DNA from: Micromonospora sp. NBC_00389
GTDB taxonomy: Bacteria > Actinomycetota > Actinomycetes > Mycobacteriales > Micromonosporaceae
Assembly (NCBI RefSeq): GCF_036059255.1
Contig: NZ_CP107947.1
Span: forward strand, 1,364,001 to 1,428,000
Length of the DNA stretch: 64,000 bases
Direction of reading: 5' to 3'
Made by a program: the position numbers and the translations under genes. The notes beneath the pieces are model-generated. The model was not told the DNA's origin. It was given only the letters and a program-made list of their open reading frames with translations, and did no database searches. Shown one piece after another: positions 523-29,345 of this stretch (position 1 is its first letter; each line of letters begins with the position of its first letter).

Positions 523-554
523 CGAGGCCGGAGCGGAAGTCCGCTCCGGCCTCG
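523..554 (-). terminator. Strong hairpin after the permuted tRNA
   Basis: A perfect 15-bp inverted repeat (CGAGGCCGGAGCGGA and its complement) with a 2-base loop at 538-539. On the minus strand it starts about five bases after the end of the permuted tRNA 5' half. There is no T-tract, as is common for actinobacterial terminators. It could also protect the 3' end of the precursor RNA. Confidence 0.6.
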
Positions 555-558
555 GCAA

Positions 559-637
559 GACAAGTCGCCGCTCTGCCAATTGAGCTACATCCCCGCGATG
601 TGGAGATGACGGGGCTCGAACCCGCAACGCGCGACAT
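559..637 (-). tRNA. Circularly permuted tRNA gene, anticodon probably GUC
   Basis: Read on the minus strand, a 3' tRNA half comes first. It holds positions 37-38 at 637-636, the anticodon-stem strand GTCGC 635-631, variable loop 630-626, T arm GCGGG/TTCGAGC/CCCGT 625-609, acceptor CATCTCC 608-602 and discriminator A 601. A 6-nt linker (600-595) follows, then a 5' half: acceptor GGGGATG 594-588, T8 A9, D stem GCTC/GAGC with loop AATTGGCA 585-570, G26, anticodon-stem strand GCGAC 568-564, T32 T33 and GTC at 561-559. In permuted order the acceptor pairs 7/7 (one G-U) and the anticodon stem 5/5. Neither half has a normal partner on its other side. Joining 36 nt of the 5' half to 37 nt of the 3' half gives a canonical 73-nt tRNA broken between positions 36 and 37. 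CCA is not encoded. The anticodon depends on the exact junction: GTC from the 5' half, while the 3' half flank reads ATC. Discriminator A is not typical of tRNA-Asp, so identity is uncertain. Confidence 0.8.
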
Positions 638-665
638 GATCAGGAGCACCTCGGGTGCTAGAGCA

Positions 666-694
666 AGCTTAGCACGATGCCCGAAATCACCCAA
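666..694 (-). promoter_or_regulatory. Promoter-like sequence for the permuted tRNA
   Basis: On the minus strand a -35-like TTGGGT (694-689) is followed, after exactly 17 bases, by an extended -10 element TGC-TAAGCT (-10 at 671-666). Transcription would begin near 658-660, about 20 bases before the 3' half of the permuted tRNA, making it an independent small RNA unit. The -35 match is only three of six, so this is a prediction from motif and spacing. Confidence 0.45.
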
Positions 695-991: not shown

Positions 992-1870
992 CTAGCGGTC
1001 CACGCTGGATTGGATCCGCAGCGTGTGGCCGTTGAGGTGAAGGTCGTGGGCCTTACCTGCCGCCGTGGCGGTCACGCCCGGCAGGCCGATGGTCTCGTCG
1101 AGCAGCATGCTGATGAGGTCTTTGGGGTACGGGTAGCTGTCCCATTGCAGGTGCCATCGTCGGCCGGCTCCGACAAGGCGGCGGCCTCGGAAGTCGTGGA
1201 AACTGGTGGGTGTCGCCCGCTGGAGTGGGTCGGAGAACCAGTGGCCGATGGCCCAACGTCCGGCGATGTCGCGGGCGTCGAGGCGCATGGCTAGTGCTCG
1301 CAGAATCGCGGCGACCCCTTTGCTGGGGGAAGGGTTGAACTGCAGCATGTGTTGTTCTGTGGCGTGGAGGGGCACGTCTGGCGTCCACCATCGGTAGCCA
1401 TCGCCAGTGTCGCGGGTGTAGACCCCGAAGCGGGCGTCGTCGAAGACTCCTCGGTGCTGGTCGGTGACGGTCATGCGCGCGCCGGTGGGCAGGTGCACCA
1501 GCCGGTAGGTCTCGTTGCCGTCGACTTGGTTCAGTCTCAGCCCGGGCAGCCCTATGGCCCCTGTTTCTTCGCCGCTGGGAACGAGGTATCCGAGGACATT
1601 GGTGGGGCAGTCGGTCACCACGACGAGGTCGTCGATGCGGGGGGACATCGTGAGCGAGTAGTGGGTCAGGCGGCTGACGATCGAGGTGCCGGCGATCGCT
1701 CCGTCAAACAGGTAGGTCGCGAGAAGGGTGCGGAGCCGTTGTTGGGGGACGGTGCAACGGTCCAAGCCGAGGTCGCCGATGTGTCCGATGCCCTGCCGGG
1801 CTGCGGTGATGTGCTCGCCGGTGTAGGCCGCCCGGAGACGGGCATGGGCGGTGTGAGCTGTGTGAGGCAT
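992..1870 (-). CDS. Hypothetical island protein, 292 aa
   Basis: The ATG start is well supported by GGAGGG seven bases upstream. I do not recognise the family. The protein is soluble, with no signal peptide or membrane segment. The N-terminal quarter (MPHTAHTAHARLRAAYTGEH) is helical and His-rich. The remainder mixes strands and helices and includes an aromatic segment (GYRWWTPDVP) and a C-terminal LHLNGHTLRIQ. Lower third-position GC than the chromosome to the right fits an acquired gene. Similar orphan proteins are common in integrative elements and phages of high-GC Actinobacteria, but no role can be assigned. It is transcribed toward the permuted tRNA unit, with about 300 bases between them. 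Confidence 0.7.
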   Translation of the reverse strand: MPHTAHTAHARLRAAYTGEHITAARQGIGHIGDLGLDRCTVPQQRLRTLLATYLFDGAIAGTSIVSRLTHYSLTMSPRIDDLVVVTDCPTNVLGYLVPSGEETGAIGLPGLRLNQVDGNETYRLVHLPTGARMTVTDQHRGVFDDARFGVYTRDTGDGYRWWTPDVPLHATEQHMLQFNPSPSKGVAAILRALAMRLDARDIAGRWAIGHWFSDPLQRATPTSFHDFRGRRLVGAGRRWHLQWDSYPYPKDLISMLLDETIGLPGVTATAAGKAHDLHLNGHTLRIQSSVDR

Positions 1871-2278
1871 GCGTGACCCTCCGCGCTGCCCGGCCAGCGG
1901 TTGTCACACAAGTTCGGTCTATGACGAAGTTGGCTTGCTGGCGGAGCGGGCGTGGCACACCCTTGGTCGGAGCGCTTGCCAGGTCCGGGGGTGGCCTGCG
2001 CTACTTCCAGCCCTCCGCGGCCGGATCATTTCCAGGCTAGCAGGCTTGCTCGATCCCCGAACGTGGCGATGCTTCTGGCGGCTACGTCCGCCAAGGCGTT
2101 CGGACGTTCGCCAACGCCAGTGATTGGCGTAATCCCCCAGAAGCGGATGTGTTGGTGCTCGCCCGGACGGGCTGAGCACGAGAGGGCGGGGCGGCCCCGA
2201 CGGTGGGCTCCTTTGCTGAACCGCCTCTACGCGGTGCCGAGCGAGCGCAACGGCTTGAGCTGGTCGCGCCGCGCCTAC
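1871..2278. other. Intergenic stretch, promoter of the preceding gene
   Basis: About 400 bases between two minus-strand genes. The part nearest 1870 must hold the promoter and ribosome binding site of the 292-aa protein. I see no RNA gene, repeat or convincing small ORF in the rest. Confidence 0.4.
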
Positions 2279-3166
2279 CTAGTCGCCAGGATTGGTTACG
2301 ACCCAGTCGAGAAGATTCGCGTAGGCAGTGATCGCGGCATACACGTCCTCGCGTAGTCCGGCCATGGTGATCAGTTGGGATCCGCAGGTTCGGCGGTCTA
2401 CGAGGCGCCACTCCACTCGCTGGGTTTTCCCTGGTCCGTCGGGTCGCGACCGGGCCTCGCCGACGACTCGGGTGATGTTCCCGTGTGCCAACTCGTTCCG
2501 ACGCCGCACGACGGCCCACAACTCCTCCCGCGGGAAGCTGCGGTTCGCTTCCGAGGATGGACGACTCGCCAGAAGCGACTCAACACGATGAAGTCGTTTG
2601 CCAATCATCCACTGGTCGAGCTCGTTTCGACGTGTCTCGAGATCATCTGGTTTCTCCAGATGCAGGATCACGTCGCCAAGGAGGTCCTCCAGGACGGTGC
2701 TCTGCGTGATGACGAGACCTCTCCGTTGATCAATCTCGCTGCGCTCGGCGACTTCTTCCCAGTCAAGGTCGACCTCGTCGTGAAATGACAGGAGAAGGTC
2801 ATAGCTTGAGAAGACGTTCAAGGGTTCGTCCGAGTCGTCGCCGAACGACACCTCGATCACGTCAACGGACAGTTGCTCCATGATCCGAACGTTGTTGTCG
2901 TCCAGCATGCCGGCGTAGGCCCAGTCGACGGTGTACGAACAGGCCAGGCCGGGATAGTCCGGCGTCCGGAAGGCGCAGCGCCAACCGCTGACTTCTGGAA
3001 CTAGGTCCGAGCTCTTGCGTCGGACGTCGCCGTGACGGGGGCACCTGATGTGTGTGGCGACCGGAGCAGCCTGCCAGCGACGAAGTAGCGCGACCTGCCC
3101 AGGGCTGAACGGCGCGTAGACCTTTGGCGTGTCGGTTGGAAGTTCCAGCGCGATTCGGAGCGCCAC
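2279..3166 (-). CDS. HEPN-motif protein with zinc-ribbon-like N-terminus
   Basis: A 295-residue protein with a GTG start and GGAG seven bases upstream. Around residues 222-229 it has RRNELAHG, which fits the R-N-x3-H signature (R-x4-6-H) of HEPN ribonucleases. Such domains act in toxin-antitoxin, abortive infection and RNA-targeting defence systems, usually as dimers. The N-terminal third holds Cys and His residues (CPRHGD, then WRCAF and GLACSY) that could bind a metal. The middle is acidic (FGDDSDEPL, DLDWEEVAERSEID). The position between an orphan gene and a CoiA-like nuclease, inside an island with other defence-like genes, suggests RNA cleavage on infection. The HEPN call rests on one motif plus helical context, so it is likely but not certain. 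Confidence 0.6.
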   Translation of the reverse strand: MALRIALELPTDTPKVYAPFSPGQVALLRRWQAAPVATHIRCPRHGDVRRKSSDLVPEVSGWRCAFRTPDYPGLACSYTVDWAYAGMLDDNNVRIMEQLSVDVIEVSFGDDSDEPLNVFSSYDLLLSFHDEVDLDWEEVAERSEIDQRRGLVITQSTVLEDLLGDVILHLEKPDDLETRRNELDQWMIGKRLHRVESLLASRPSSEANRSFPREELWAVVRRRNELAHGNITRVVGEARSRPDGPGKTQRVEWRLVDRRTCGSQLITMAGLREDVYAAITAYANLLDWVVTNPGD

Positions 3167-3359
3167 TCGATGTCTCCACTACCTGTCTCGGAAGGACGCG
3201 TCGGTGTGGACGAATGCGTCACGCCCCTATCCTGCCGTAGCGCCACCACCGTGGTCAGCCGTGACTACGGGGTTCTCGGGCCGCTGGTGAGGACCGGGAC
3301 TGCGACCGGCCAGGTCTCGGGCGCCGGGGACCTGGCGCGTACGTCGGATGGAATCCGAT

Positions 3360-4748
3360 CTAGATCAGCGACATCTGCTCGTGGTCGGGGAGGTCGAAGT
3401 GCACGACACGGGTGGGGTCAATGGCGCCGGTGGCGGCGAGTTGTTGGGCTTCCCGGGCGTTACGCACGTAAACCGGGACCGCAGGGGGCAGCCGATGCAG
3501 TGATGCAGGGCTGGGCCGGAGTACCCCGTGTAGCCGCAGGCGAACGCGAATCGCGATGCCGTAGGCGCGGTCTGGGGTGGGGCCTTGGGCATCGAACTCG
3601 GGGCGGGCGGCGTGCGTCTTCCACAGCAGATCCGCGACGGCCTCGCGGAATTCGTGGATCTGCTCGGCAGACAACTCCCCCCACCATCGGTCCGCGGCCA
3701 GTCGCTCGTCCTGCTCCTGGCGCAGCCGCTGCTGCTCAGCGGCGCGTTCCTGTGCCTGCCGCTGCTCCTCCTCGACTTCTCGTCGCTGGCGTGCCTGTTC
3801 GGCTTCGGCTGCCCACATGCGCAGTTGCTCATCTCGCCGGGCGGCCTCCTCCGCTGCCCTGATCTCGCGTTGCCGTTGCTCGTCTTTGCGTCGGGCCTCG
3901 GCTTCTGCTTCGGCTCGCTGCTCGGCCTGGCGTTGCTGCTCTTCGCGTTGGCGCTTGCGTGCCTCCTGGCGCTGCCGCATCGCCTCGTGCCGAGTCTCGC
4001 TATCAATGTGCGGGCTGGAGGTCCAGACCAGGCGCCGCCGACGGTAGAGGTCGTCGGCGGCGAACCACACCCGCCGGTATCGGGGGCGGACCTCGTGCAC
4101 GAGGGGCTGCCCTCGCGACGCCCAGCGGACGAAGGCGGTCAGCTCCAGCGTGTCGACGGCGCCCCAGGCGCCGCGGTCAAAGTCGAACGCTGACGGACCC
4201 TCCACGACGGTCCAGGGCCGGCCCTGCGTGGGTTCGCGGACCCGGATCGACGGCACGTGTCCCATCCACGGGGCCTGCGCTGCCGGACTGACCCAGCACA
4301 CGCCGACACCGGCGGCGCGGTATCGCTCGGTGCGCTCCTGGATGTCCTCGATGGTGATGGGCGACAGTTGGGCCTCCCAGGCGATGCGTCGGGTGCCGTC
4401 GTGCGAGGAGGCGAGGACATCGGCGCGCCATGAGCCATCCGGGGAGCGGACCTCCAGCTCGGCGTGCCAATCAGCGGCCCGTACGGCGGTAGCCAGTTCC
4501 AGCTTGAGGAGGTGATGCTCCAGGGACTCGTTCAACCAGGCGCAGTCGGTGAGGCGTCCGGGGTCATGGGCGAAGTACCGCAGCCCCCGAGCGGACACCT
4601 TGGCATGAACCCCATGCCCGCACTCCGGACACCGCAACGCCACCCGCGGCCGAATCCTGTGCACCGCCGACCAGGTCAGACCACAGCCGAGGTCGGGCAA
4701 GGTGGCGTCGATGCGGCCCACCTCGGGATGAATCGCCGCGAAGGCCAA
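3360..4748 (-). CDS. CoiA-like nuclease with long coiled coil
   Basis: Resembles the competence protein CoiA-like family. From the TTG start proposed here (462 aa), residues 37-46 form a zinc-type RCPECGHGVH. ESLEHHLLK follows (E74-E77), then WRADVLAS (D110) and WEAQLSPI (E125, Q127). Together these match the E...D...ExQ active site of the restriction-endonuclease fold. Residues about 245-385 are an uninterrupted, highly charged Arg/Glu/Gln coiled coil. A small beta-rich C-terminal domain ends with LPDHEQMSLI. The start is uncertain: the frame is open to 5033 and GTG 4793 is an alternative. TTG 4748 is preferred because the conserved part begins right there (LAFAAIHPEVGR). A short ORF at 4750-4806 ends one base before it and could couple translation. 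Role probably DNA cleavage in mobile-element biology or defence. Confidence 0.7.
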   Translation of the reverse strand: MAFAAIHPEVGRIDATLPDLGCGLTWSAVHRIRPRVALRCPECGHGVHAKVSARGLRYFAHDPGRLTDCAWLNESLEHHLLKLELATAVRAADWHAELEVRSPDGSWRADVLASSHDGTRRIAWEAQLSPITIEDIQERTERYRAAGVGVCWVSPAAQAPWMGHVPSIRVREPTQGRPWTVVEGPSAFDFDRGAWGAVDTLELTAFVRWASRGQPLVHEVRPRYRRVWFAADDLYRRRRLVWTSSPHIDSETRHEAMRQRQEARKRQREEQQRQAEQRAEAEAEARRKDEQRQREIRAAEEAARRDEQLRMWAAEAEQARQRREVEEEQRQAQERAAEQQRLRQEQDERLAADRWWGELSAEQIHEFREAVADLLWKTHAARPEFDAQGPTPDRAYGIAIRVRLRLHGVLRPSPASLHRLPPAVPVYVRNAREAQQLAATGAIDPTRVVHFDLPDHEQMSLI

Positions 4749-4914
4749 CTCACCGCCGCCGCCGTCTAAACGTGCCGCGGACAACCCGGCCACCGTTGGT
4801 GACCATGCGGATCTCGCCCACGCGCACCTCTCACCGATGGTCGCGGAAACGCATATACGTCGAGCATGGCAGAGCGGTACGACAACATCACTGCTCGTAC
4901 CTGTCCCCCAGTGG

Positions 4915-5178
4915 TCAGTCGAAGACCTGGTTGACCGTGACTCGGATGCGCTCGGGGTAGCTGTCGACGATGAGCCACCAGTGATCGTCGTAAGGCACCT
5001 CCAGGACCACGGGAGTGAGGTCGTAGAAGCCACCGAAGAACTCGTACTCGTCGCCGTCGACGTACGCCTGATACTCGTCGCCGTCCATCAGGCAGACCCT
5101 GGCGGTCGAGCCGCGCAACCCGATCTCGAACACCGCGCCAGTGGCGCACTCACCAAGGTCCCAGTAGAGGTGATCCAC
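4915..5178 (-). CDS. DUF1883-domain small protein
   Basis: 87 residues matching the DUF1883 pattern: VCLMDGDEYQAYVDG, then YEFFGGFYDLTPVVLEVP and HWWLIVDSYP. These correspond to the conserved LMD-x-Y, GGF, PV-x-L-x-VP and HW-x-x-VID positions of the family. The domain is a compact beta sandwich with no assigned function, found alone or fused to TIR and other effector domains. It lies upstream of the CoiA-like nuclease on the same strand, about 165 bases away, and may be co-transcribed with it. Its acidic, aromatic composition would suit a binding or inhibitory partner. That is inference. Confidence 0.75.
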   Translation of the reverse strand: MDHLYWDLGECATGAVFEIGLRGSTARVCLMDGDEYQAYVDGDEYEFFGGFYDLTPVVLEVPYDDHWWLIVDSYPERIRVTVNQVFD

Positions 5179-5671
5179 ACACTATGTGTAGTGGATGATG
5201 ACGCCCCGTAGAAAGCCCTACCGGGCGTGGTCTTGTCCGCTCCGCAACCCACGGCCGCTCGCGGGGTGCCTGCCGAGTTGATGCCGATGGTCAACACTTC
5301 TCGGCAGGTCACCACCGGCGGCAGTGTTCTCGACTAACGGGTCACCAGTCGTCCATGAAGATGAAGCTGATGTCGCCGCCGTAGACCGTCCGGTGCACCG
5401 CGTCGTCGACTACGGCCTGTTCGCGATCGGCCCGGCTCAGCACCGCCCGATCGACGCCGCTCTGCACGTCGACACCGCGAACCTGGCATCGGAACCGGAC
5501 CACCCTTCAGCGGACCAAGAAATGTGGTTGTCCACCGACTCCCTCTGCGACGTCGGGCCCTCGCGGGCATCCCCGACGAGATCGTGCGCTCTGCGCAGCG
5601 TCGCCTGCTGGCCGGGGCTGATGCTCACAAGCTTCGTCGGCGCTCGCCGCGCGAGCAGCGGCCGTCGGCGC
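5179..5671. other. Intergenic stretch with no secure gene
   Basis: Nearly 500 bases between the DUF1883 gene and the 3' end of the large STAND gene. It should contain the DUF1883 promoter. The only ORF with natural-looking composition is the 53-codon frame at 5342-5503 listed separately. No repeat or RNA gene is seen. Confidence 0.4.
5342..5503 (-). CDS. Possible small ORF, 53 aa
   Basis: A short frame from GTG 5503 to TGA, ending in GGDISFIFMDDW. The composition is protein-like (hydrophobic strand, acidic tail, regular spacing), unlike the surrounding shadow frames. However, there is no ribosome binding site at a proper distance, and an in-frame TGA lies two codons before the GTG. It could be a real small island protein or the remnant C-terminus of a longer decayed gene. 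No homologue comes to mind. Confidence 0.22.
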   Translation of the reverse strand: MVRFRCQVRGVDVQSGVDRAVLSRADREQAVVDDAVHRTVYGGDISFIFMDDW

Positions 5672-8600
5672 CTATGGCTCCCGATAGGGATAACGGGGAT
5701 AGGGCAGACCGAACCACTCCGCGAACGGTGGATATTCGCTGACTGCCGTGCCCACCTCGGGGGTGGGCTCAGGGGCACGCCACGGCGCTGCGGTTCGCCC
5801 ATCAGGCTCTAGCCCGTAGCGGCGCAATTGCTCCACCTCGGTCCCTTTCAAGCTGAACTGGAGATCGATGAGGTCAGCACCTGCCAGGCACGCGTCACGA
5901 AGCACCCGTTCGGCCTCCTTCGCGCGCCCGTCCTTCTCGAGTACATCGGCCAGCGTCGACAACACTTCCGTCGATGGTTGCGCCACGCCACGCAGTAGTT
6001 GTTCCGCCTCAGCAGTGCGCCCGGTTTCGGCGAGCATGCGGGCCAGTTCGACGAGTACGTGCAGGTCCTCAGCAGCTGTCTGGCGAAGGAGCGCCTCGGC
6101 CTGCTCGGGCTGACCGGCTTGCCGGAGGAGATGCCCGAGCCGAACCGGCGCCTGGGGTTTGCCAGCGGCGGTCAACCGCCGAAGCACCTCGTTCGCCTCG
6201 TCGTGATGCCCGAGGTGCATGAGTTGGCCGGCAACGTCGAGAAGGACTTCCTGGTCGTCGGTGGCCGCCCGCTGCCGTAGGACATCCGCCGCGTCCTCAG
6301 TCTTGCCTAGGCGGTCTAGCATGTTGGGCAGCAGCAGATTCGCGTGCTCGTCGCCTGCGTCGGCGGCCCGCCGCAGCCAGCTTTCGCCTTCTTCGAAGAG
6401 TTCCGGATCGTCGTCAAATTCGATGCCGTCGTCGATGAGCAGCCCGGCGAGCCGCTGCATGGCCCAGGCATGACCGTCTTCGGCCGCGTGTCGCAACAAT
6501 TCGTCCACTCCGCGCCACTGGTCGGCCTCGATCAGTAGTTCGACGCACTGCTCCAGGGCATCAGCGGGGATCCTGTGGACAATGGTCGAGAGTAATGTCC
6601 GGCTCTCCTCTGCGCGGCCGAGGTCATCCATGAGGCCGGCGAGCAGAATCGCGGCGATCGGGCTGCCCTTGGCGGTCTGCTGGTGCAGCAGGGGTTCCAG
6701 ATCGCCTTGCTGGTCCTGCTCGTACAGCACGTTTGCCAGCACGACGAGCGCGGGAGGATCGCCTTGTTCTGCGCGGCCCGTCAACAAGGCGCGGGCCTCG
6801 TCGCTGCGTCCGCTGTCGGTGAGCAGGTCCACGAGCCGAACAAGAGCGTCAAGATCGTCACGGTTCTCGACGAGCTGTCGCAGGTGCCGCTCGGCGTCGG
6901 CGGGGTCTTCGTGCACCTCCTGACCCGAGGTCGCGTCCCACACGTACCGCTGGGCGAGCGATTGAATGGCGCTCTCATGGCCGAGTTCGGCCGCTCGCCT
7001 TACCCAGGGGTCGCTCTCGTCGTGCCGGTCGAGTCTGCTGAGAAGCACGCCGATGGCCATGGCCGCGCCAGGTGAGCCCTGGTTGGCCGGCGACGCGCAG
7101 AGTGTGACCGCATCGCGGTAGAGATGGCGATCCTCGGCTTCCCTGGCCAGGCGTAGCTGGTCCTCAAGCGGGCCCGGATCGGCGAGCAGGACGGCCCACA
7201 ACTGTGGGGGCAGCGGATACATGTCTTGCTCGGGACGCAGGTGCTGAAGGAGATAGTCGGCGAGCACGTAGCCGTCGGGCTCGCCGAGATCGGACTGAGA
7301 CCGCACCGGCGTCAGCGGAGCGATGACACCCTTGACCATCCGGGTGACGTAGGCGATGGCCGCGGCGAACCAAGGTGCCGTACGGGCCCGTTGCTGTTCG
7401 TCGAGATAACCTGCCGCCGCGTGTTCGAGCATGGTCGCAGACAGCGGAGCGGCGCGACCGGCGGCGCGGGCATCGGCTGCGGCAAGCATGAGCGCTCGGG
7501 CGTACGGATCGGCATCCCGGTAGGCGGCGATAAGGTCCGGGCCGGCTGCCAGTGCCTGAGTAATCCGGTTCGAGGATCCGGCGGTCGCGATGGCGTCGCG
7601 AAGGCGTGGATCGGAGCGCGACCGGGCCACGTCGACATCGGCGGGTAGGAATGTCGGCGGTACGTCAATGCGGACTGCTCGGGCCAGCAGTGTTCGAACC
7701 TCATGGTATGGATCGGCGCCGTCCGCGTCCGGCTGCGTGGTGAAGCGTTGCCAGTACTGCGGCCACAGGGTGCCGATCACGACCACAGGCGCGTTCGAGC
7801 GCAGCAACTCCATCACGGCGACGGCCGCCGCCTCGCGATGGGGAGAGCTGAAATATCGCTGCGCCTCGTCGAGCCAGATCACTGAGGGTGGACCCGCCGG
7901 CCGCTCCGACAACGCGAGCGCGGTGGTGGGGAACTCCAGCGCCCAGTCCGGCAGGCACGCCAGGACCGCCTCGTATGCGGTGCGCGTCTTCCCGGTTGAT
8001 GACCCACCGACTAGGACGACGAGCACGCCGTTCATGGGCATGGGGTGCAACAGCCGACGAAGCTTCGCGTCATGGCTTCGACCCACGTAGTCCGGTAGCG
8101 TCGTCGCGACCTGCTCCGCCGGGCTGATCGACCGGTGCACGCCCAGGTCGAAGGGCTCCCAGTCGACTACCCGGCGCTCTGGCGCTACGGTCGCGCGCCG
8201 CCGCTCACGCAGGGCTTCGTTGACATCATTGATGGTGTCCATGGCCTGAGCCAGAACATCCCCGGGCGTAAGGAATTCCGCGAAACGTCGGCTGATCCCG
8301 GGATAGGCGTCCAGGTAGGCGGACAACTGATTGGCGTCCCACAAGGCCCAGCCTTTAAGGCCAAGGCGCTGCGCGTATTCGCTGAGGAGGTCGTTGACAC
8401 GGTCGATGCCGCCGCGCCCCGCGACGCTGGTCAAGCGAACGTTCGTGGCGACGATCAAGTACTGCGGCATTCGGCCGTCGGTGACGCGCCGCCGTCGCGG
8501 CTCAAGCCATTGGTTCAATTCGCTGGTGAGGGTCCGGCGCAACCATTGGGCATCGGGAACACCGTCAGCAATTTGGCGACACTTCGCCTGCAGGACACCG

Positions 8601-8788
8601 TAGCCGTTCCAGTCAGCCCGAAACGACACCCGGCCATCGAAGGTAGCCTCGCGGCCCCCGTCCGGGCCCGCGCCGAAAGCCTGGATCGCCGGGCCCAGCA
8701 CCCGCACCGCGAGCGCCCTACACAGCTCCTCGAATCGCCGCTCGTCCAGCCTGCTCAGCTCGTACGCCACTGAACTATCATGACCCAC
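5672..8788 (-). CDS. Nuclease-STAND NTPase with TPR/SEL1-type repeats, Avs-like
   Basis: A 1038-residue protein read from GTG 8788, with GGAG 11 bases upstream; GTG 8770 is an alternative. The longer open frame to 9247 overlaps the divergent neighbour and is not used. Residues 1-75 look like a PD-(D/E)xK nuclease (ERRFEELCRAL, GPDGGREATF with D43, then LQAK at 66-69). Residues about 250-500 are a P-loop STAND-type NTPase: Walker A GGSSTGKT (261-268) and Walker B VIWLDEAQ (303-310). From about 570 to 1000 there are helical repeats of about 35 residues (for example EQAEALLRQ, ETGRTAEAEQLL). Effector, STAND core and repeat sensor is the layout of Avs antiphage proteins, which bind a viral protein, oligomerise and degrade DNA. 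A role in phage defence is the best inference. Exact subfamily unknown. Confidence 0.8.
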   Translation of the reverse strand: MGHDSSVAYELSRLDERRFEELCRALAVRVLGPAIQAFGAGPDGGREATFDGRVSFRADWNGYGVLQAKCRQIADGVPDAQWLRRTLTSELNQWLEPRRRRVTDGRMPQYLIVATNVRLTSVAGRGGIDRVNDLLSEYAQRLGLKGWALWDANQLSAYLDAYPGISRRFAEFLTPGDVLAQAMDTINDVNEALRERRRATVAPERRVVDWEPFDLGVHRSISPAEQVATTLPDYVGRSHDAKLRRLLHPMPMNGVLVVLVGGSSTGKTRTAYEAVLACLPDWALEFPTTALALSERPAGPPSVIWLDEAQRYFSSPHREAAAVAVMELLRSNAPVVVIGTLWPQYWQRFTTQPDADGADPYHEVRTLLARAVRIDVPPTFLPADVDVARSRSDPRLRDAIATAGSSNRITQALAAGPDLIAAYRDADPYARALMLAAADARAAGRAAPLSATMLEHAAAGYLDEQQRARTAPWFAAAIAYVTRMVKGVIAPLTPVRSQSDLGEPDGYVLADYLLQHLRPEQDMYPLPPQLWAVLLADPGPLEDQLRLAREAEDRHLYRDAVTLCASPANQGSPGAAMAIGVLLSRLDRHDESDPWVRRAAELGHESAIQSLAQRYVWDATSGQEVHEDPADAERHLRQLVENRDDLDALVRLVDLLTDSGRSDEARALLTGRAEQGDPPALVVLANVLYEQDQQGDLEPLLHQQTAKGSPIAAILLAGLMDDLGRAEESRTLLSTIVHRIPADALEQCVELLIEADQWRGVDELLRHAAEDGHAWAMQRLAGLLIDDGIEFDDDPELFEEGESWLRRAADAGDEHANLLLPNMLDRLGKTEDAADVLRQRAATDDQEVLLDVAGQLMHLGHHDEANEVLRRLTAAGKPQAPVRLGHLLRQAGQPEQAEALLRQTAAEDLHVLVELARMLAETGRTAEAEQLLRGVAQPSTEVLSTLADVLEKDGRAKEAERVLRDACLAGADLIDLQFSLKGTEVEQLRRYGLEPDGRTAAPWRAPEPTPEVGTAVSEYPPFAEWFGLPYPRYPYREP

Positions 8789-8952
8789 ACCCCGACCTGC
8801 TCCATCCCCCACAGCGCGCCCGACTTCCACCTCAGTGGTCGATGCGATTGCGCAAGCAGGAGAACAGGCGTCGTTCTTACGAACGTGTGGCCGTAGCGTT
8901 GATCGCCGCAGAGGCAAGGTGCCTTCGGCGCTCTGCCTGCCAGAATGACACG

Positions 8953-9885
8953 ATGGTTGACGACGCGGGTGTCGCGACGCTTCGTGCGGTCGTGATCCGA
9001 GCCGCCCGCGCGATCGCTGTCGCAAGCACTCACGACAAGCTCGACGAGGACCTGGTTGCGGTTGGACTTCCGCCGTCGGCCGGGGGTGGGAGCAAAGCGC
9101 AGCGTGGCGAGAGCAGCGCCGCAGTGGTCCCGGACGAGCGGCTTCGTGAGGTCGCCGTGGGCCTGGTGGAGCGGAACGCCGGCCTGCACATGCTCGACCG
9201 CATGATGGTCCAGGATCTCGTGTGGGCAGACGAAAATCCTCCTTCAATTCCGAAGCGGACAGGTCGCGACCTCGCCCGGGCCCTGCCAGAGCGGGTCCTG
9301 GTCAACCACGCCCAGCGATTCCACACTCTCCTGGGCACGCTATTCGATCTGGGAAGCTATGACCTCTTCTTCGGGTTCGACGACACTAGCCTCAGCGGGC
9401 AGATCGATCGGCACTTCTACCGCAACGACGACTGGAGTGTCGAGCAGCTGTTCGACGAGCTCGGTGCGGTTGATCAGGCATCCGACCGCAGATTCGCTCT
9501 CTTCCTCGAAGGCATCGTGTCCGGCGACACCGTGCCCGATGAAGACGCCCAACGCCAGCTGGTCGACGCGATCAATCCACCACTGGCCGGTATCGGGCTG
9601 GAGCTTCGAGAGACAGGCAACGCCGACGGCTACCCGACCTTCCACCTGGTAGCCACCGGATCCAGGGCCGGCAGGCCAAAGCAGCTCATCTTCGCGTGCC
9701 CGCGAAAGCCTGATCTGGCCGGACGCACACGCACCGGCATCCCAACCATGATCCATACCAGGAGATACCCGAGCGCACGGGTCAACACCGACCGGCACGA
9801 ACCCCTGCTCAGACAGCACAGTGACAACGGAGCACCATTGGAGCACCAGGATCCAAACTCTGGGAAAAATCGTCCCAACGCTTAG
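8953..9885 (+). CDS. AbiJ-like N-terminal-domain protein, probably 3'-altered
   Basis: 310 residues from ATG 8953. The middle and end (DDWSVEQLFDELGAVD, SDRRFALFLEGIVSG, DGYPTFHLVATG, RPKQLIFACPRKPDL) match a domain I know from AbiJ-associated abortive-infection proteins. In relatives KPDL is followed by a conserved stretch ending the domain (RFRDAVNNDIEIVTNADKVL-type). Here, directly after KPDL, the sequence switches to an unrelated basic low-complexity tail (AGRTRTGIPTMIHTRRYPSA) that ends 54 bases before tRNA-Arg. A recombination or deletion at the island end probably replaced the C-terminus. It is divergent from the STAND gene, with about 165 bases between for promoters. The family call is from memory of the pattern. 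Confidence 0.6.
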   Translation: MVDDAGVATLRAVVIRAARAIAVASTHDKLDEDLVAVGLPPSAGGGSKAQRGESSAAVVPDERLREVAVGLVERNAGLHMLDRMMVQDLVWADENPPSIPKRTGRDLARALPERVLVNHAQRFHTLLGTLFDLGSYDLFFGFDDTSLSGQIDRHFYRNDDWSVEQLFDELGAVDQASDRRFALFLEGIVSGDTVPDEDAQRQLVDAINPPLAGIGLELRETGNADGYPTFHLVATGSRAGRPKQLIFACPRKPDLAGRTRTGIPTMIHTRRYPSARVNTDRHEPLLRQHSDNGAPLEHQDPNSGKNRPNA

Positions 9886-10282: not shown

Positions 10283-11881
10283 ATGCAAGAGCAGCCGCCC
10301 AGCGAGCCGACCCGCCGAGAGCCTGCTGACCGGGCGCGCCGGCGCCCCCCGCGTGCGACCTTCACGCCACCGACCGACGAGCAGTCGGTGGACGCGCCGG
10401 CACCGACGTCCGGGCCGACAGTGGCCTCGGCCACTCCGGGCGGCCAGCGCCCTCGCCAGGCCAAGGCCGCCCCGGCGGTGCTCTTCCAGCCTCCGGATCC
10501 GGACCTTCCACTGCCCCGACAGCCGGTTCCGACGCCCGCCGCCGGGAGCGGCCCAACGCCCGCCGACCAGCCAAGCTCGTCGGACGCTCGGGCCGTCGAA
10601 CAGCGGGGCCCAAGAGAGCGAGAGGCGGCGAGGGGCGCGGAGCCGGGGCCGACGGTTCCCGAGACGGGGAGCGGCGAGCGGCCCAACAACACCGAGCCGA
10701 CCGGCCCGGGCAGCTCGGTGACTCCGGCGGACGAGCGAGCGCTCGAGGTCAGCCCGGAGCAGTCGGCGGACCCGCCGACCCGGACTCCGAAATCCCGGGC
10801 CAGCCGCGCCGCCCCTGTCCGCAAGGCCGCCACCAAGAAGGCAGCCAGGGCGTCGGTCGAGGCGTCCACCACGACACCGCCGTCGCCCGACGCGCCCCCG
10901 GCCGCCCCGACGGCGATCCCCAACAAGCGGACCGCGACCCCGACCGCCCCGGAGGCGACCCCCAACGAGGGGACCCCCACCCCGATCACTCCGGCGGTGA
11001 CCCCCACCAAGCGCGCGGCGAGCCCGACCAAGCGCGCGGCGTCCGCCCGGAAGAGCGCTACGCCGAAGAAGGCCGTCCCCGCACCCGTACCGGAACCCCC
11101 GGCCGAGCAGGTCATGGCTGTGGTCGTGCCCGGCGACCCCACCCCTGCGGCCCCGGCTCAACCGGCCGAACAGCAGACCGCTGCGGACGAGAGGGACAGC
11201 GCGCGCCACGTCATGCCGGCTTCGGCGCGTACCCCCGAATCGGAGCTGCGGGCGGTCGCCGCGCGCCTGCTCGACCACCCGGGCTTCGCCCCGGAGTTGC
11301 TGGCCCTCGCCGCGGTGCGGTCGCTCGGCCCTGGAGCCGCCGACTGGGCTGAGCAACTCCGGGCCAGATACCCGGACGCTCCGGCGGACGGCCTGGCCCG
11401 GCTGGCCACCCGGCGGTTCGTGCGCTCGGCGGGCGCGGGCGGGGCGGTCGCCGCGCTGGCTGGGCTATTCGCGCCGCTGGCCGAGCTGACCTCGGTGCTC
11501 TGGACCCATTCGAACCTGGTGCTGCACCTTGCGGCGGCGTACGGGCAGGACCCGGCGCATCCCGACCGGGCGGCCGAGTTGCTGGTGCTCACCCAGGTGC
11601 ACCCTGACACGGCGAGCGCGCGTGCCGCGTTGGCCGCCGCGCGGGCGGCGGACGACCCGGCGGACGGGAAGTGGGCTCGGGCGGCGGAGGCCGCGTGGCG
11701 GCTGGCCGCACCACTCACGGCGCAGGCCGGCGGGTGGCTGGCGTTGCGGCTGGCGTCCCGGCTGCTGCCGGGCGCGGCGGTGCTGGCCACGGCGCTGGGT
11801 GACGCGGCGGCGGCCGACCGGCTCGCGGCCCGGGCGGTGGCCGTTTACCGGCGCGCCCCGGCCGCCCCGGTGACGGGCTGA
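10283..11881 (+). CDS. EcsC-like protein with long disordered basic N-terminus
   Basis: 532 residues. The first 300 or so are low complexity, rich in Pro, Ala, Thr and Arg, with lysine-rich histone-H1-like runs (KAATKKAARAS; TPTKRAASPTKRAASARK; ATPKKAVPAP). The last 220 residues form a helical domain (LLDHPGFAPELLALAAVRSL, FVRSAGAGGAVAALAGLFAP, LVLHLAAAYGQDP) that resembles the EcsC family, whose function is poorly defined. The repeated TPTKRAA units suggest a nucleic-acid or polyanion binding tail. The gene stands alone after the tRNAs and converges on the CPBP protease gene. The opposite strand is also open for long stretches, but only because of GC bias. Confidence 0.75.
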   Translation: MQEQPPSEPTRREPADRARRRPPRATFTPPTDEQSVDAPAPTSGPTVASATPGGQRPRQAKAAPAVLFQPPDPDLPLPRQPVPTPAAGSGPTPADQPSSSDARAVEQRGPREREAARGAEPGPTVPETGSGERPNNTEPTGPGSSVTPADERALEVSPEQSADPPTRTPKSRASRAAPVRKAATKKAARASVEASTTTPPSPDAPPAAPTAIPNKRTATPTAPEATPNEGTPTPITPAVTPTKRAASPTKRAASARKSATPKKAVPAPVPEPPAEQVMAVVVPGDPTPAAPAQPAEQQTAADERDSARHVMPASARTPESELRAVAARLLDHPGFAPELLALAAVRSLGPGAADWAEQLRARYPDAPADGLARLATRRFVRSAGAGGAVAALAGLFAPLAELTSVLWTHSNLVLHLAAAYGQDPAHPDRAAELLVLTQVHPDTASARAALAAARAADDPADGKWARAAEAAWRLAAPLTAQAGGWLALRLASRLLPGAAVLATALGDAAAADRLAARAVAVYRRAPAAPVTG

Positions 11882-27743: not shown

Positions 27744-29345
27744 ATGCCTGCAACCCCCGCCAGGCCCGAACGCGCGGCCCGACGACGGGCCCTCACCGTC
27801 GCCGTCGCCGTCGCCGCTCTCGTCCTGCCGATGCTCGCCGGCCCGGCCGCCCCCGCGGCCGCCGCCGACCGGCCGACCGTCCAGCCTCTCCCCGCCAACC
27901 TCGAGTCCATCCGAGCCGCCGAGGCGACCGCCCTCTACGGCAGCCCGGCGATCCGCCCGATCGAACAACGCCGCACCGCGCAGATCACCATGGGTGACAG
28001 CCAGATCTCCGGCGAGGGGGTCGGCAACTACATACCCAGCACCCACCAGGACGGCAACTGGTGCGACCGCTCGTACGACCAGGCGGTGTTCCGCACCGGC
28101 ATCCAGTCGGACGCGAGGTACAACATTGCCTGCTCCGGTGCCACTCCGTGGAACCTGATCGCCGGCGGCCCCACCCAGCACAACGAGCTGAACCAGGGCG
28201 ACTACCTGGGGATCAAGGCGCGCAACATGCACGTGAAGCTGATCTGGGTGGTGGTCGGCGCGAACGGCGACGGGACCATCCAGTTCGGCCCGGTCGCCAC
28301 CGACTGCGCGGTCAGCAGGGTCTTCCTCCAGGGCTCCTGCTACGCCACCTACACCGACCAGTGGACGATCCGCACCGACGGCAGCCGCCGAGCGGTGGCC
28401 GACGCCCTCACCGACATCCGGCAGACCATGACCAAGGCCGGCTACCTGCGCTCGGACTACGAGCTGGTGCTCATGTCATACCCCAGCCCGGCCAGCCCGG
28501 ACGTGGAGGACAACCCGAACTTCCCCGGCTGGTACGCCGGCGGCTGCCTGCTCTACCTGGCCGACGCCGCGTTCGCCCGGAACAAGGCGGTGCCGTTGTT
28601 CGAGTCGGCGCTGCGCGCGGCGGCCGCCCAGACCGGCACCCGCTATCTGGACGCCAGCCGGCTCTTCCACGGCCACGAGGTGTGCACCGACAACACCTCG
28701 GTCCGCGGCCTCCACATCGAGATCGGGGTCTGGAACGAGAACGCCGCCCGGCAGTCGTTCCACCCCAACGCGCGCGGGCACGGCATGTTCGCCCAGTGCA
28801 TCACCCAGTTCTGGAACTCCGGGCAGCAACAGGCGACCTGCGTCGACCCGGCCAGCACGGGCAGCGGCGTGCTCTACTCCGGCCTGCTGCAGTTCAAGCA
28901 GTTGCGCAACCTGGCCACCAACACCTGCATCGATGGCAAGGGCTACGACTCCCGCAACGGCACCGCCCAGCAGTCGTACGGCTGCCACGGCGGGCGCAAC
29001 CAGGGCTTCTGGTACGACTCGACCAAGCGGTCACTGCACTCGGAGCTCTCCCACGACCGGTGCCTCGACGTCGCCAGCGGATCGATGACCGCCGGTACTG
29101 CGGTCAACATCTACAACTGCAACGGCAGCGCCGCCCAGCAGTTCGCCTTCGCCGGCAACCAGCTCAAGCCGGCCAGCGCCAGCAACCTCTGCGTGGCGTT
29201 CGACAGCCCGTCGTCGGGCACTCCCCGGCTGCGGTTGGCCACCTGCTCCACCAGCACCCGACAGCAGTGGTCGTTCGAGGCCCGGACCGCCGCCAACCCG
29301 GTCGGCTACGGTCACGACGACTTCATCGGCTCCCGCGTCTACTGA
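27744..29345 (+). CDS. Secreted SGNH hydrolase with ricin-type lectin domain
   Basis: 533 residues. A Sec signal peptide with an arginine-rich start ends near APAAAADRPT. The catalytic part (about 65-370) has the SGNH blocks: ITMGDSQISGEG (Ser in GDS), VVVGANGDGTI (block III) and RQSFHPNARGHG (His). Paired cysteines fit extracytoplasmic folding. The C-terminal 140 residues are a ricin-B type beta-trefoil: NTCIDGKG, HDRCLDVASG and SNLCVAFDS, with repeated QQ-F/W endings (AAQQFAF, RQQWSF). The enzyme is probably an esterase or lipase docking on polysaccharide. The start is supported by AAAGGAG upstream. Confidence 0.85.
   Translation: MPATPARPERAARRRALTVAVAVAALVLPMLAGPAAPAAAADRPTVQPLPANLESIRAAEATALYGSPAIRPIEQRRTAQITMGDSQISGEGVGNYIPSTHQDGNWCDRSYDQAVFRTGIQSDARYNIACSGATPWNLIAGGPTQHNELNQGDYLGIKARNMHVKLIWVVVGANGDGTIQFGPVATDCAVSRVFLQGSCYATYTDQWTIRTDGSRRAVADALTDIRQTMTKAGYLRSDYELVLMSYPSPASPDVEDNPNFPGWYAGGCLLYLADAAFARNKAVPLFESALRAAAAQTGTRYLDASRLFHGHEVCTDNTSVRGLHIEIGVWNENAARQSFHPNARGHGMFAQCITQFWNSGQQQATCVDPASTGSGVLYSGLLQFKQLRNLATNTCIDGKGYDSRNGTAQQSYGCHGGRNQGFWYDSTKRSLHSELSHDRCLDVASGSMTAGTAVNIYNCNGSAAQQFAFAGNQLKPASASNLCVAFDSPSSGTPRLRLATCSTSTRQQWSFEARTAANPVGYGHDDFIGSRVY

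Follow-up and report, generated by a model that had tools for sequence, protein, structure and literature searches.

Near the start of a 64,000-nucleotide stretch of the Micromonospora sp. NBC_00389 genome (the window), the two halves of a tRNA-like sequence lie in reversed order on the minus strand. The locus raises the question of whether it is a permuted gene for a decoding tRNA, a remnant of tandem tRNA genes, a Y RNA, or an RNA of another kind that imitates tRNA.

Organization of the permuted module

Direct reading and a pair scan revealed a complete permuted tRNA-like module on the minus strand at 635-564, in which 21 of 21 cloverleaf pairs are present. The acceptor (7/7) and the T stem (5/5) each contain one G.U; the D stem pairs 4/4 and the anticodon stem 5/5. 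The original prediction, in which a 3' half precedes a 5' half and the stems close in permuted order, was thereby borne out. Its claim that both halves break within an anticodon loop has to be given up, since no such loop is present and both module ends run on into flanking hairpins.

The predicted transcript is an RNA of about 135 nt, running on the minus strand from about 659 to 524, that carries a hairpin of its own at the 5' end and another, of 13 bp, at the 3' end (Table 1). The sequence upstream may hold a promoter, a weak candidate at which the promoter scan reported none; a TANNNT hexamer 6-7 nt 5' of the hairpin was also seen by eye in two homologues (TACACT in L059, TATGAT in L006). 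The same two loci carry 5' hairpins of other sequence at the equivalent place, again by eye and outside the counted alignments. In the 3' hairpin one pair is altered on both sides among three copies; the terminator scan, which needs a T run, did not report this hairpin.

Table 1. Features of the predicted RNA and its upstream region, in order along the minus strand
Feature	Position in window	Strand	Basis or remark
Weak candidate promoter TTGGGT-17-TAAGCT	666..694	-	by eye; 6/12 consensus matches
5' hairpin AGCACC-CGA-GGTGCT	645..659	-	direct reading; at predicted transcript start
Anticodon-type stem, 3' strand GTCGC	631..635	-	5/5 pairs with 568-564
Variable GCGTT	626..630	-	direct reading
T arm, loop TTCGAGC	609..625	-	pair scan; Rfam YrlA alignment
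Acceptor 3' strand CATCTCC, contains U70	602..608	-	7/7 pairs with 594-588
Acceptor loop ACATCGC, A73 = first base	595..601	-	direct reading
Acceptor 5' strand GGGGATG, contains G3	588..594	-	direct reading and alignment
TA between acceptor strand and D arm	586..587	-	direct reading
D arm GCTC-AATTGGCA-GAGC	570..585	-	pair scan
Single G	569	-	direct reading
Anticodon-type stem, 5' strand GCGAC	564..568	-	pair scan and alignment
Linker TTGTCTTGCC leading to 3' hairpin	554..563	-	same in L059, altered in L006
Terminator-like 13-bp hairpin without U tract	524..553	-	13/13 pairs in three copies

Conservation of the fold

A geometric scan of 3225 dinucleotide shuffles of the 64-kb window produced one match at 21 pairs and three at 20. 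Pairing by itself does not settle the matter: neighbouring copies of a single tRNA gene reach 21 as well, as all six tandem tRNA-Asn pairs scored here did (L042, L049-L053). Covariation, rather than pair count, was taken as the deciding evidence. In the window copy and its two close homologues, all 102 cells (34 pairs of module and 3' hairpin) are paired and 4 pairs are altered on both sides; 2 of 500 shuffles reached these copies in percentage paired, doubly changed pairs and covariation score, and 57 of 500 did so in pair types, for three sequences that share ancestry. An alignment of six sequences was composed of the window copy, the two close homologues (one plasmid-borne) and three distant sequences, L143-L145. 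Here 99.2% of cells are paired, one cell of the anticodon-type stem is unpaired, and all 5 anticodon pairs and 2 of the 7 acceptor pairs are altered on both sides. None of 500 shuffles reached the covariation score, 54 reached the doubly changed pairs and 212 the pair types, and slid structures came nowhere near the covariation score. Compensatory changes extend across the six sequences, and selection acts on the stems as paired stems. The original prediction had staked itself on homologues keeping compensatory pairs, and with five anticodon and two acceptor pairs found it is not refuted. Chance origin was rejected on the shuffle scan and the covariation tests.

Tandem duplicates that produce an equal 21 pairs would also allow a dead remnant, left when neighbouring tRNA genes lost their outer halves. 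The compensatory changes in five anticodon and two acceptor pairs, in stems that would otherwise be free to decay, make such a remnant highly improbable; decay may instead be pictured at a further copy, L007/L068, in which the T-arm half appears by eye to be broken. Free-energy folding of the module alone favours a non-tRNA hairpin, at -33.8 kcal/mol against -26.8 for the permuted fold. The RNAalifold fold of a first covariance model, R1, was not the permuted one, and R1 was set aside.

Search for a decoding tRNA

ARAGORN found no tRNA or tmRNA at the module and no tmRNA or tag in the window. Rfam lists at the module only YrlA and an 18-bit tmRNA fragment (the tmRNA threshold is 84 bits); a weak tRNA-model match is possible there, because the Rfam tool omitted one lower overlapping match of the tRNA/tmRNA clan. 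Sub-threshold tmRNA or permuted-tmRNA matches were obtained at L005 and L006. A ligated decoding tRNA of the algal or archaeal style could be imagined, as a 7-nt loop carrying U33 and A37 could be made from the module ends (by eye). Splicing to a true tRNA is unlikely, because no bulge-helix-bulge motif (two 3-nt bulges, 4-bp helix) was found at the ends in the window copy and two homologues; what recurs in the three sequences is just a helix of 3-4 bp with a 4/0-nt bulge. Nor is a mature decoding tRNA likely, because the would-be anticodon varies (GUC, GUC and GAC in three copies, by eye) and the ends enter structured flanks formed by hairpins. A permuted gene for a true tRNA is therefore very improbable. 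Among the options listed in the original prediction, the tRNA mimic is best supported and the true tRNA did not stand. Nor is the arrangement new to bacteria, as had been supposed: YrlA Y RNAs share the order, and two-piece tmRNA genes are permuted according to the available text of PMC3985003.

Elsewhere in the window (28838-28925, minus strand), ARAGORN calls an 88-nt tRNA-Phe, unusually long and with the anticodon at 31, which may be spurious. In the same genome at 6.753-6.758 Mb (L003, L148), an array of more than 20 tRNAs contains two odd anticodons (gggg, tg) by ARAGORN.

Relation to YrlA and Ro60

The Rfam YrlA model (RF02553) aligns at the module in permuted order with 32.6 bits, against a gathering score of 69. 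That the score is sub-threshold says little, because none of 246 genomes of the class passes the threshold (best 56.2), and the match alone is no proof, because ordinary neighbouring tRNAs also match the model. The outer stem is conserved in actinobacterial Ro-type Y RNAs, with GGTGCGCAGGC... on the 5' side and GATCTCGGG on the 3' side, and neither motif half was found in three of three window-type copies. This motif misses real cases, as the Ro60-linked RNA of phage GMA2 is without it, so a motif-free test was run in which the 45-nt flanks were taken as two strands and compared with shuffled flanks. Pairing of the flanks was no better than that of shuffles in the window copy, L059 and L006 (144, 176 and 184 of 200 shuffles as low), and likewise in L143-L145 (46, 61 and 169 of 200). 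The flanks of the phage Ro-linked RNAs of GMA2 and Cashline were beaten by 1 and 0 of 200 shuffles, respectively; 13 of 24 motif-defined Ro-type modules were beaten by at most 2 of 100 shuffles, and 11 of 24 fail this strict cut.

These results bear on a reading of the RNA as an orphan YrlA that serves a Ro60 encoded elsewhere. Its module order is identical, the window's genome has a Ro60-like gene (TROVE; VWA_2 match below cut-off) with tandem Y RNAs at 5.17 Mb, 3.8 Mb away, and host G077 likewise carries a TROVE gene. The Ro stem is nevertheless missing by motif and by flanks; the motif alone is not decisive, as GMA2 lacks it, yet the GMA2 flanks pair. Moreover, TROVE turned up in 3 of the 12 genus genomes examined and gave no match in host G106, which carries the L005 copy and is listed as 100% complete in 2 contigs. 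An orphan YrlA is accordingly quite improbable, and a plain YrlA was rejected on the missing stem and on G106. For YrlA domains, modification by DusA and TruB and binding to PNPase are described (PMC8394870, available text). The window module may work like the effector module of YrlA, but by the defining stem the RNA falls outside that family.

Several Ro-type RNAs were observed in passing. In the window's own genome near 5.17 Mb, three or four tandem Y RNA units precede the Ro60-like gene (L063 8300-7720, minus strand; by eye), of which the Rfam YrlA model reports just one. The Gordonia phages GMA2 and Cashline contain unannotated Y RNAs beside Ro60-like genes (L060 3498-3566, L061 3501-3559): in Cashline the Y RNA lies 5' of the annotated Ro-like gene, and in GMA2 a TROVE/vWA_Ro60 gene lies upstream of the Y RNA. 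In the same genus, a 22.8-kb contig has an array of 36 tRNAs and, about 250 nt downstream, a Ro-type YrlA (L057 9207-9276, minus strand). In a mycobacterial survey, yrlA was a candidate for acquisition by transfer (PMC9569102, available text).

An alanine-type acceptor end

G1-C72, G2-C71, G3.U70, G4-C69 and A73 are invariant in six of six aligned sequences, and covariation is seen at 5-68 and 6-67. In a tally in which related copies are not independent, G3.U70 with A73 occurred in 4 of 4 recognised stand-alone modules; the DUF7873 set had it in 6 of 72 modules and the Ro-type group, defined by both motif halves, in 0 of 24. The tally recognised only 4 modules in 8 stand-alone loci, L144 and L145 being scored via the alignment; the 72 modules came from 48 loci, some overlapping, and outside L113-L142 their position was not restricted to downstream of the gene. 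Judged by sequence, the acceptor end is of the alanyl-tRNA synthetase identity type, as fixed in tmRNA. Alanyl-tRNA synthetases rely predominantly on G3-U70 (PMC6451123, available text), and the accessible part of PMC3985003 describes their recognition as chiefly through the acceptor stem and the third acceptor pair of tmRNA as a completely conserved G-U. Two resident tRNA-Ala genes bear the identical GGGG/CTCC-A end; among 136 tRNA records from 13 loci, a set smaller than the whole genome, the module halves are closest to tRNA-Asp and tRNA-Trp. The acceptor loop encodes CCA in two of six aligned sequences, as ACCACAT in L059 and ACCAACAA in the other homologue, L006, and CCA after A73 is absent in the window copy and L143-L145. 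The idea that a CCA marks the loop of such RNAs in general lost support, as it is present in 20 of 47 DUF7873 module rows (behind 30 DUF7873 genes, with one module counted twice) and 2 of 6 stand-alone sequences.

An acceptor end of this kind would suit a split, alanylatable tRNA-like RNA, in which RNase P and tRNase Z would open the acceptor loop and alanyl-tRNA synthetase would charge the product. The RNA would then resemble a two-piece tmRNA without message, CCA being present or added. This is a possible though unlikely reading, and several findings speak for it: G3.U70 and A73 hold in six of six sequences while 5-68 and 6-67 covary, CCA is encoded in L059 and L006, the resident tRNA-Ala genes have a matching end, and RNase P and tRNase Z probably open permuted tmRNA precursors (PMC3985003, available text), in addition to the tmRNA G-U and the stem reading of the synthetase. 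The absence of CCA in four of the six sequences and of any tmRNA or tag by ARAGORN argues against it, as does the loop of 6-8 nt, which is short for processing; G3.U70 may also descend from a tRNA-Ala ancestor, and the loci L067 and L070 are without the pair. In the fuller form of this reading, which is unlikely, bacteria would cut a permuted tRNA of plasmids and islands at its acceptor loop and charge it with alanine without an anticodon; the RNA would be akin in function to a two-piece tmRNA that lacks a message and would represent one among several Ro-independent lineages (the window, DUF7873 and L067/L070 types).

Homologues and DUF7873-linked RNAs

Among 160 genomes of the genus, the window's own included, three other copies were found by DNA search: L005, on the 73-kb plasmid NZ_CP054924 of Verrucosispora sp. 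NA02020 (G106); L006, on a 96-kb contig that may be a plasmid; and L007/L068. Covariance model R2, built from the three intact copies (window and two close homologues), scores these at 143.5, 141.9 and 139.4 bits by construction and at most 66.4 bits elsewhere in 354 family genomes, so that 3 of 354 exceed 130 bits; the broken copy L007/L068 still scores 66.0. Some R2 match at E 0.001 was found in 174 of the 354 genomes. The 30 listed R2 loci are mostly Ro-type Y RNAs and DUF7873-linked RNAs, together with a tandem tRNA array (L079) and L067/L070. The latter two apparently represent another stand-alone lineage, one with incomplete acceptor pairing and no alanine signature; the six-sequence alignment A6 does not include them. 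Of 397 genomes of the order, six had R2 matches at E up to 1e-9; three of these were new and, picked out by R2 in this way, became the distant sequences L143-L145. These have a strong hairpin 3' of the module (by eye) and no tRNA gene within about 3 kb, and L143 lies near an integrase-like reading frame (by eye, without family search). Model R3 gave some match in 175 of 394 genomes; the 29 other loci listed are Ro-type, tandem tRNAs or other modules, with no further window-type member. Exact-pattern scans of genome and viral collections, from which records near the window's genome may be absent, yielded none. Two related islands (L097 7420-7297, minus strand; L099 8642-8764, plus strand) hold a further stand-alone permuted tRNA-like RNA, which has a terminator-like hairpin and lies close to a conserved protein of about 530 aa that has no Pfam match.

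A DUF7873 neighbour was noted at three of the six R2 loci first annotated and also at a fourth locus, L094 (G525). DUF7873 (PF25283) occurs in 102 of 250 family genomes, and one DUF7873 query matched 73 phage and 4 plasmid records. At 30 best-gene loci from relatives (L113-L142), R2 matches were present at 30 of 30, 64 in total with E up to 0.01, all downstream and on the strand of the gene. Among phage and plasmid loci, 7 of 10 have a module behind the gene (L101-L103, L106, L107, L109, L110), called by R2 at E 2e-6 or better or by a pair scan of at least 19; by eye, two more, L105 and L108, seem permuted with long loops, and none was seen behind the gene in L104 (Microcoleus phage). The downstream permuted RNA is the likely partner of DUF7873, an uncharacterised family on which the literature search found no paper. 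In L113-L142, L094-L096, L098 and L100-L110, the RNA behind the gene, where found, is unannotated and has one or two modules. No DUF7873 gene was found in six genus genomes tested, four of which have a window-type copy (one damaged).

Genomic neighbourhood

Just left of the window, L058 3371-6265 (plus strand) encodes BilA, BilB and BilD homologues of a ubiquitin-like antiphage system, which places a Bil-type defence operon about 4 kb from the RNA. GC3 of four reading frames at 992-9247 is 0.73-0.82 against 0.88 at 10283-11881, a difference that weakly fits an island. The original prediction of a permuted tRNA-like RNA in an island-like region holds up, and covariation marks the RNA as functional. 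Within the low-GC3 stretch, a 1191-aa TPR protein (5672-9247, minus strand) has weak antiphage-model matches. No protein is common to the neighbourhoods of the copies once the stretch that L058 shares with the window, and the frame read through the RNA itself, are set aside.

The defence operon would be in line with a decoy role against anticodon nucleases or further weapons that cut tRNA, and Hughes et al. suggested the YrlA domain as a possible competitive inhibitor of anticodon nuclease (PMC7790460, available text). The RNA, however, offers no anticodon loop for binding or cutting, and its homologues lack a common neighbour protein; a decoy is rather doubtful.

Proposed function and comparison with known systems

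The locus probably encodes a stand-alone structured RNA of about 135 nt, a permuted tRNA mimic without the Ro60 stem that would engage host tRNA enzymes. The RNA would be transcribed from the minus strand and would present a tRNA elbow and an alanine-type acceptor stem to these enzymes, candidates being RNase P, TruB- and Dus-type enzymes, PNPase or alanyl-tRNA synthetase. It might act as a competitor, tether or pseudo-substrate in the service of the element that carries it. Counted against this mimic are the alternative hairpin at -33.8, the rarity of the RNA (3 of 354 genomes), the want of a common neighbour protein, the common descent of the three close sequences, the recovery of L143-L145 through R2 itself, L067/L070 without the alanine signature, and the 11 of 24 Ro-type modules that likewise fall short of the flank cut. 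A search of titles and abstract starts found no description of a Ro-independent permuted tRNA-like RNA, most subscription journals lying outside it. YrlA papers of Wolin and co-workers (Chen 2014, Wang 2018, Sim 2018) may mention Ro-independent or double YrlA-like RNAs, and the novelty of the stand-alone and DUF7873 RNAs is therefore uncertain. The locus shows the permuted tRNA mimic to be a portable RNA module, more than an appendage of Ro60, and one lineage retains the alanine acceptor end, which makes bacterial processing and charging of a permuted anticodon-less tRNA directly testable.

Natural circularly permuted RNAs, including tmRNA and tRNA, are reviewed in PMC10085705, the available text of which is without the word YrlA. 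With the permuted tRNA genes of algae and archaea the window RNA shares the 3' half before the 5' half, but it has neither the bulge-helix-bulge nor a constant anticodon. Two-piece tmRNA is alike in its permuted order, its G3.U70 and A73 end and, in two homologues, CCA; it differs in that the window RNA has a full D arm, an anticodon-type stem, no tag found and a length of about 135 nt. The DUF7873-linked RNAs share the module, and some of their acceptor loops are ACCACAT, identical to that of L059; they often have two modules and adjoin the DUF7873 gene, whereas the window type stands without it. YrlA shows the same succession of anticodon-type stem strand, T arm, acceptor hairpin, D arm and stem strand. 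Unlike YrlA, the window RNA is without the Ro60-binding stem and an adjacent Ro60 gene, its acceptor loop is of 7 nt instead of the UUCG of several Ro-type RNAs, and it has an alanine-type acceptor end and a 3' hairpin of its own.
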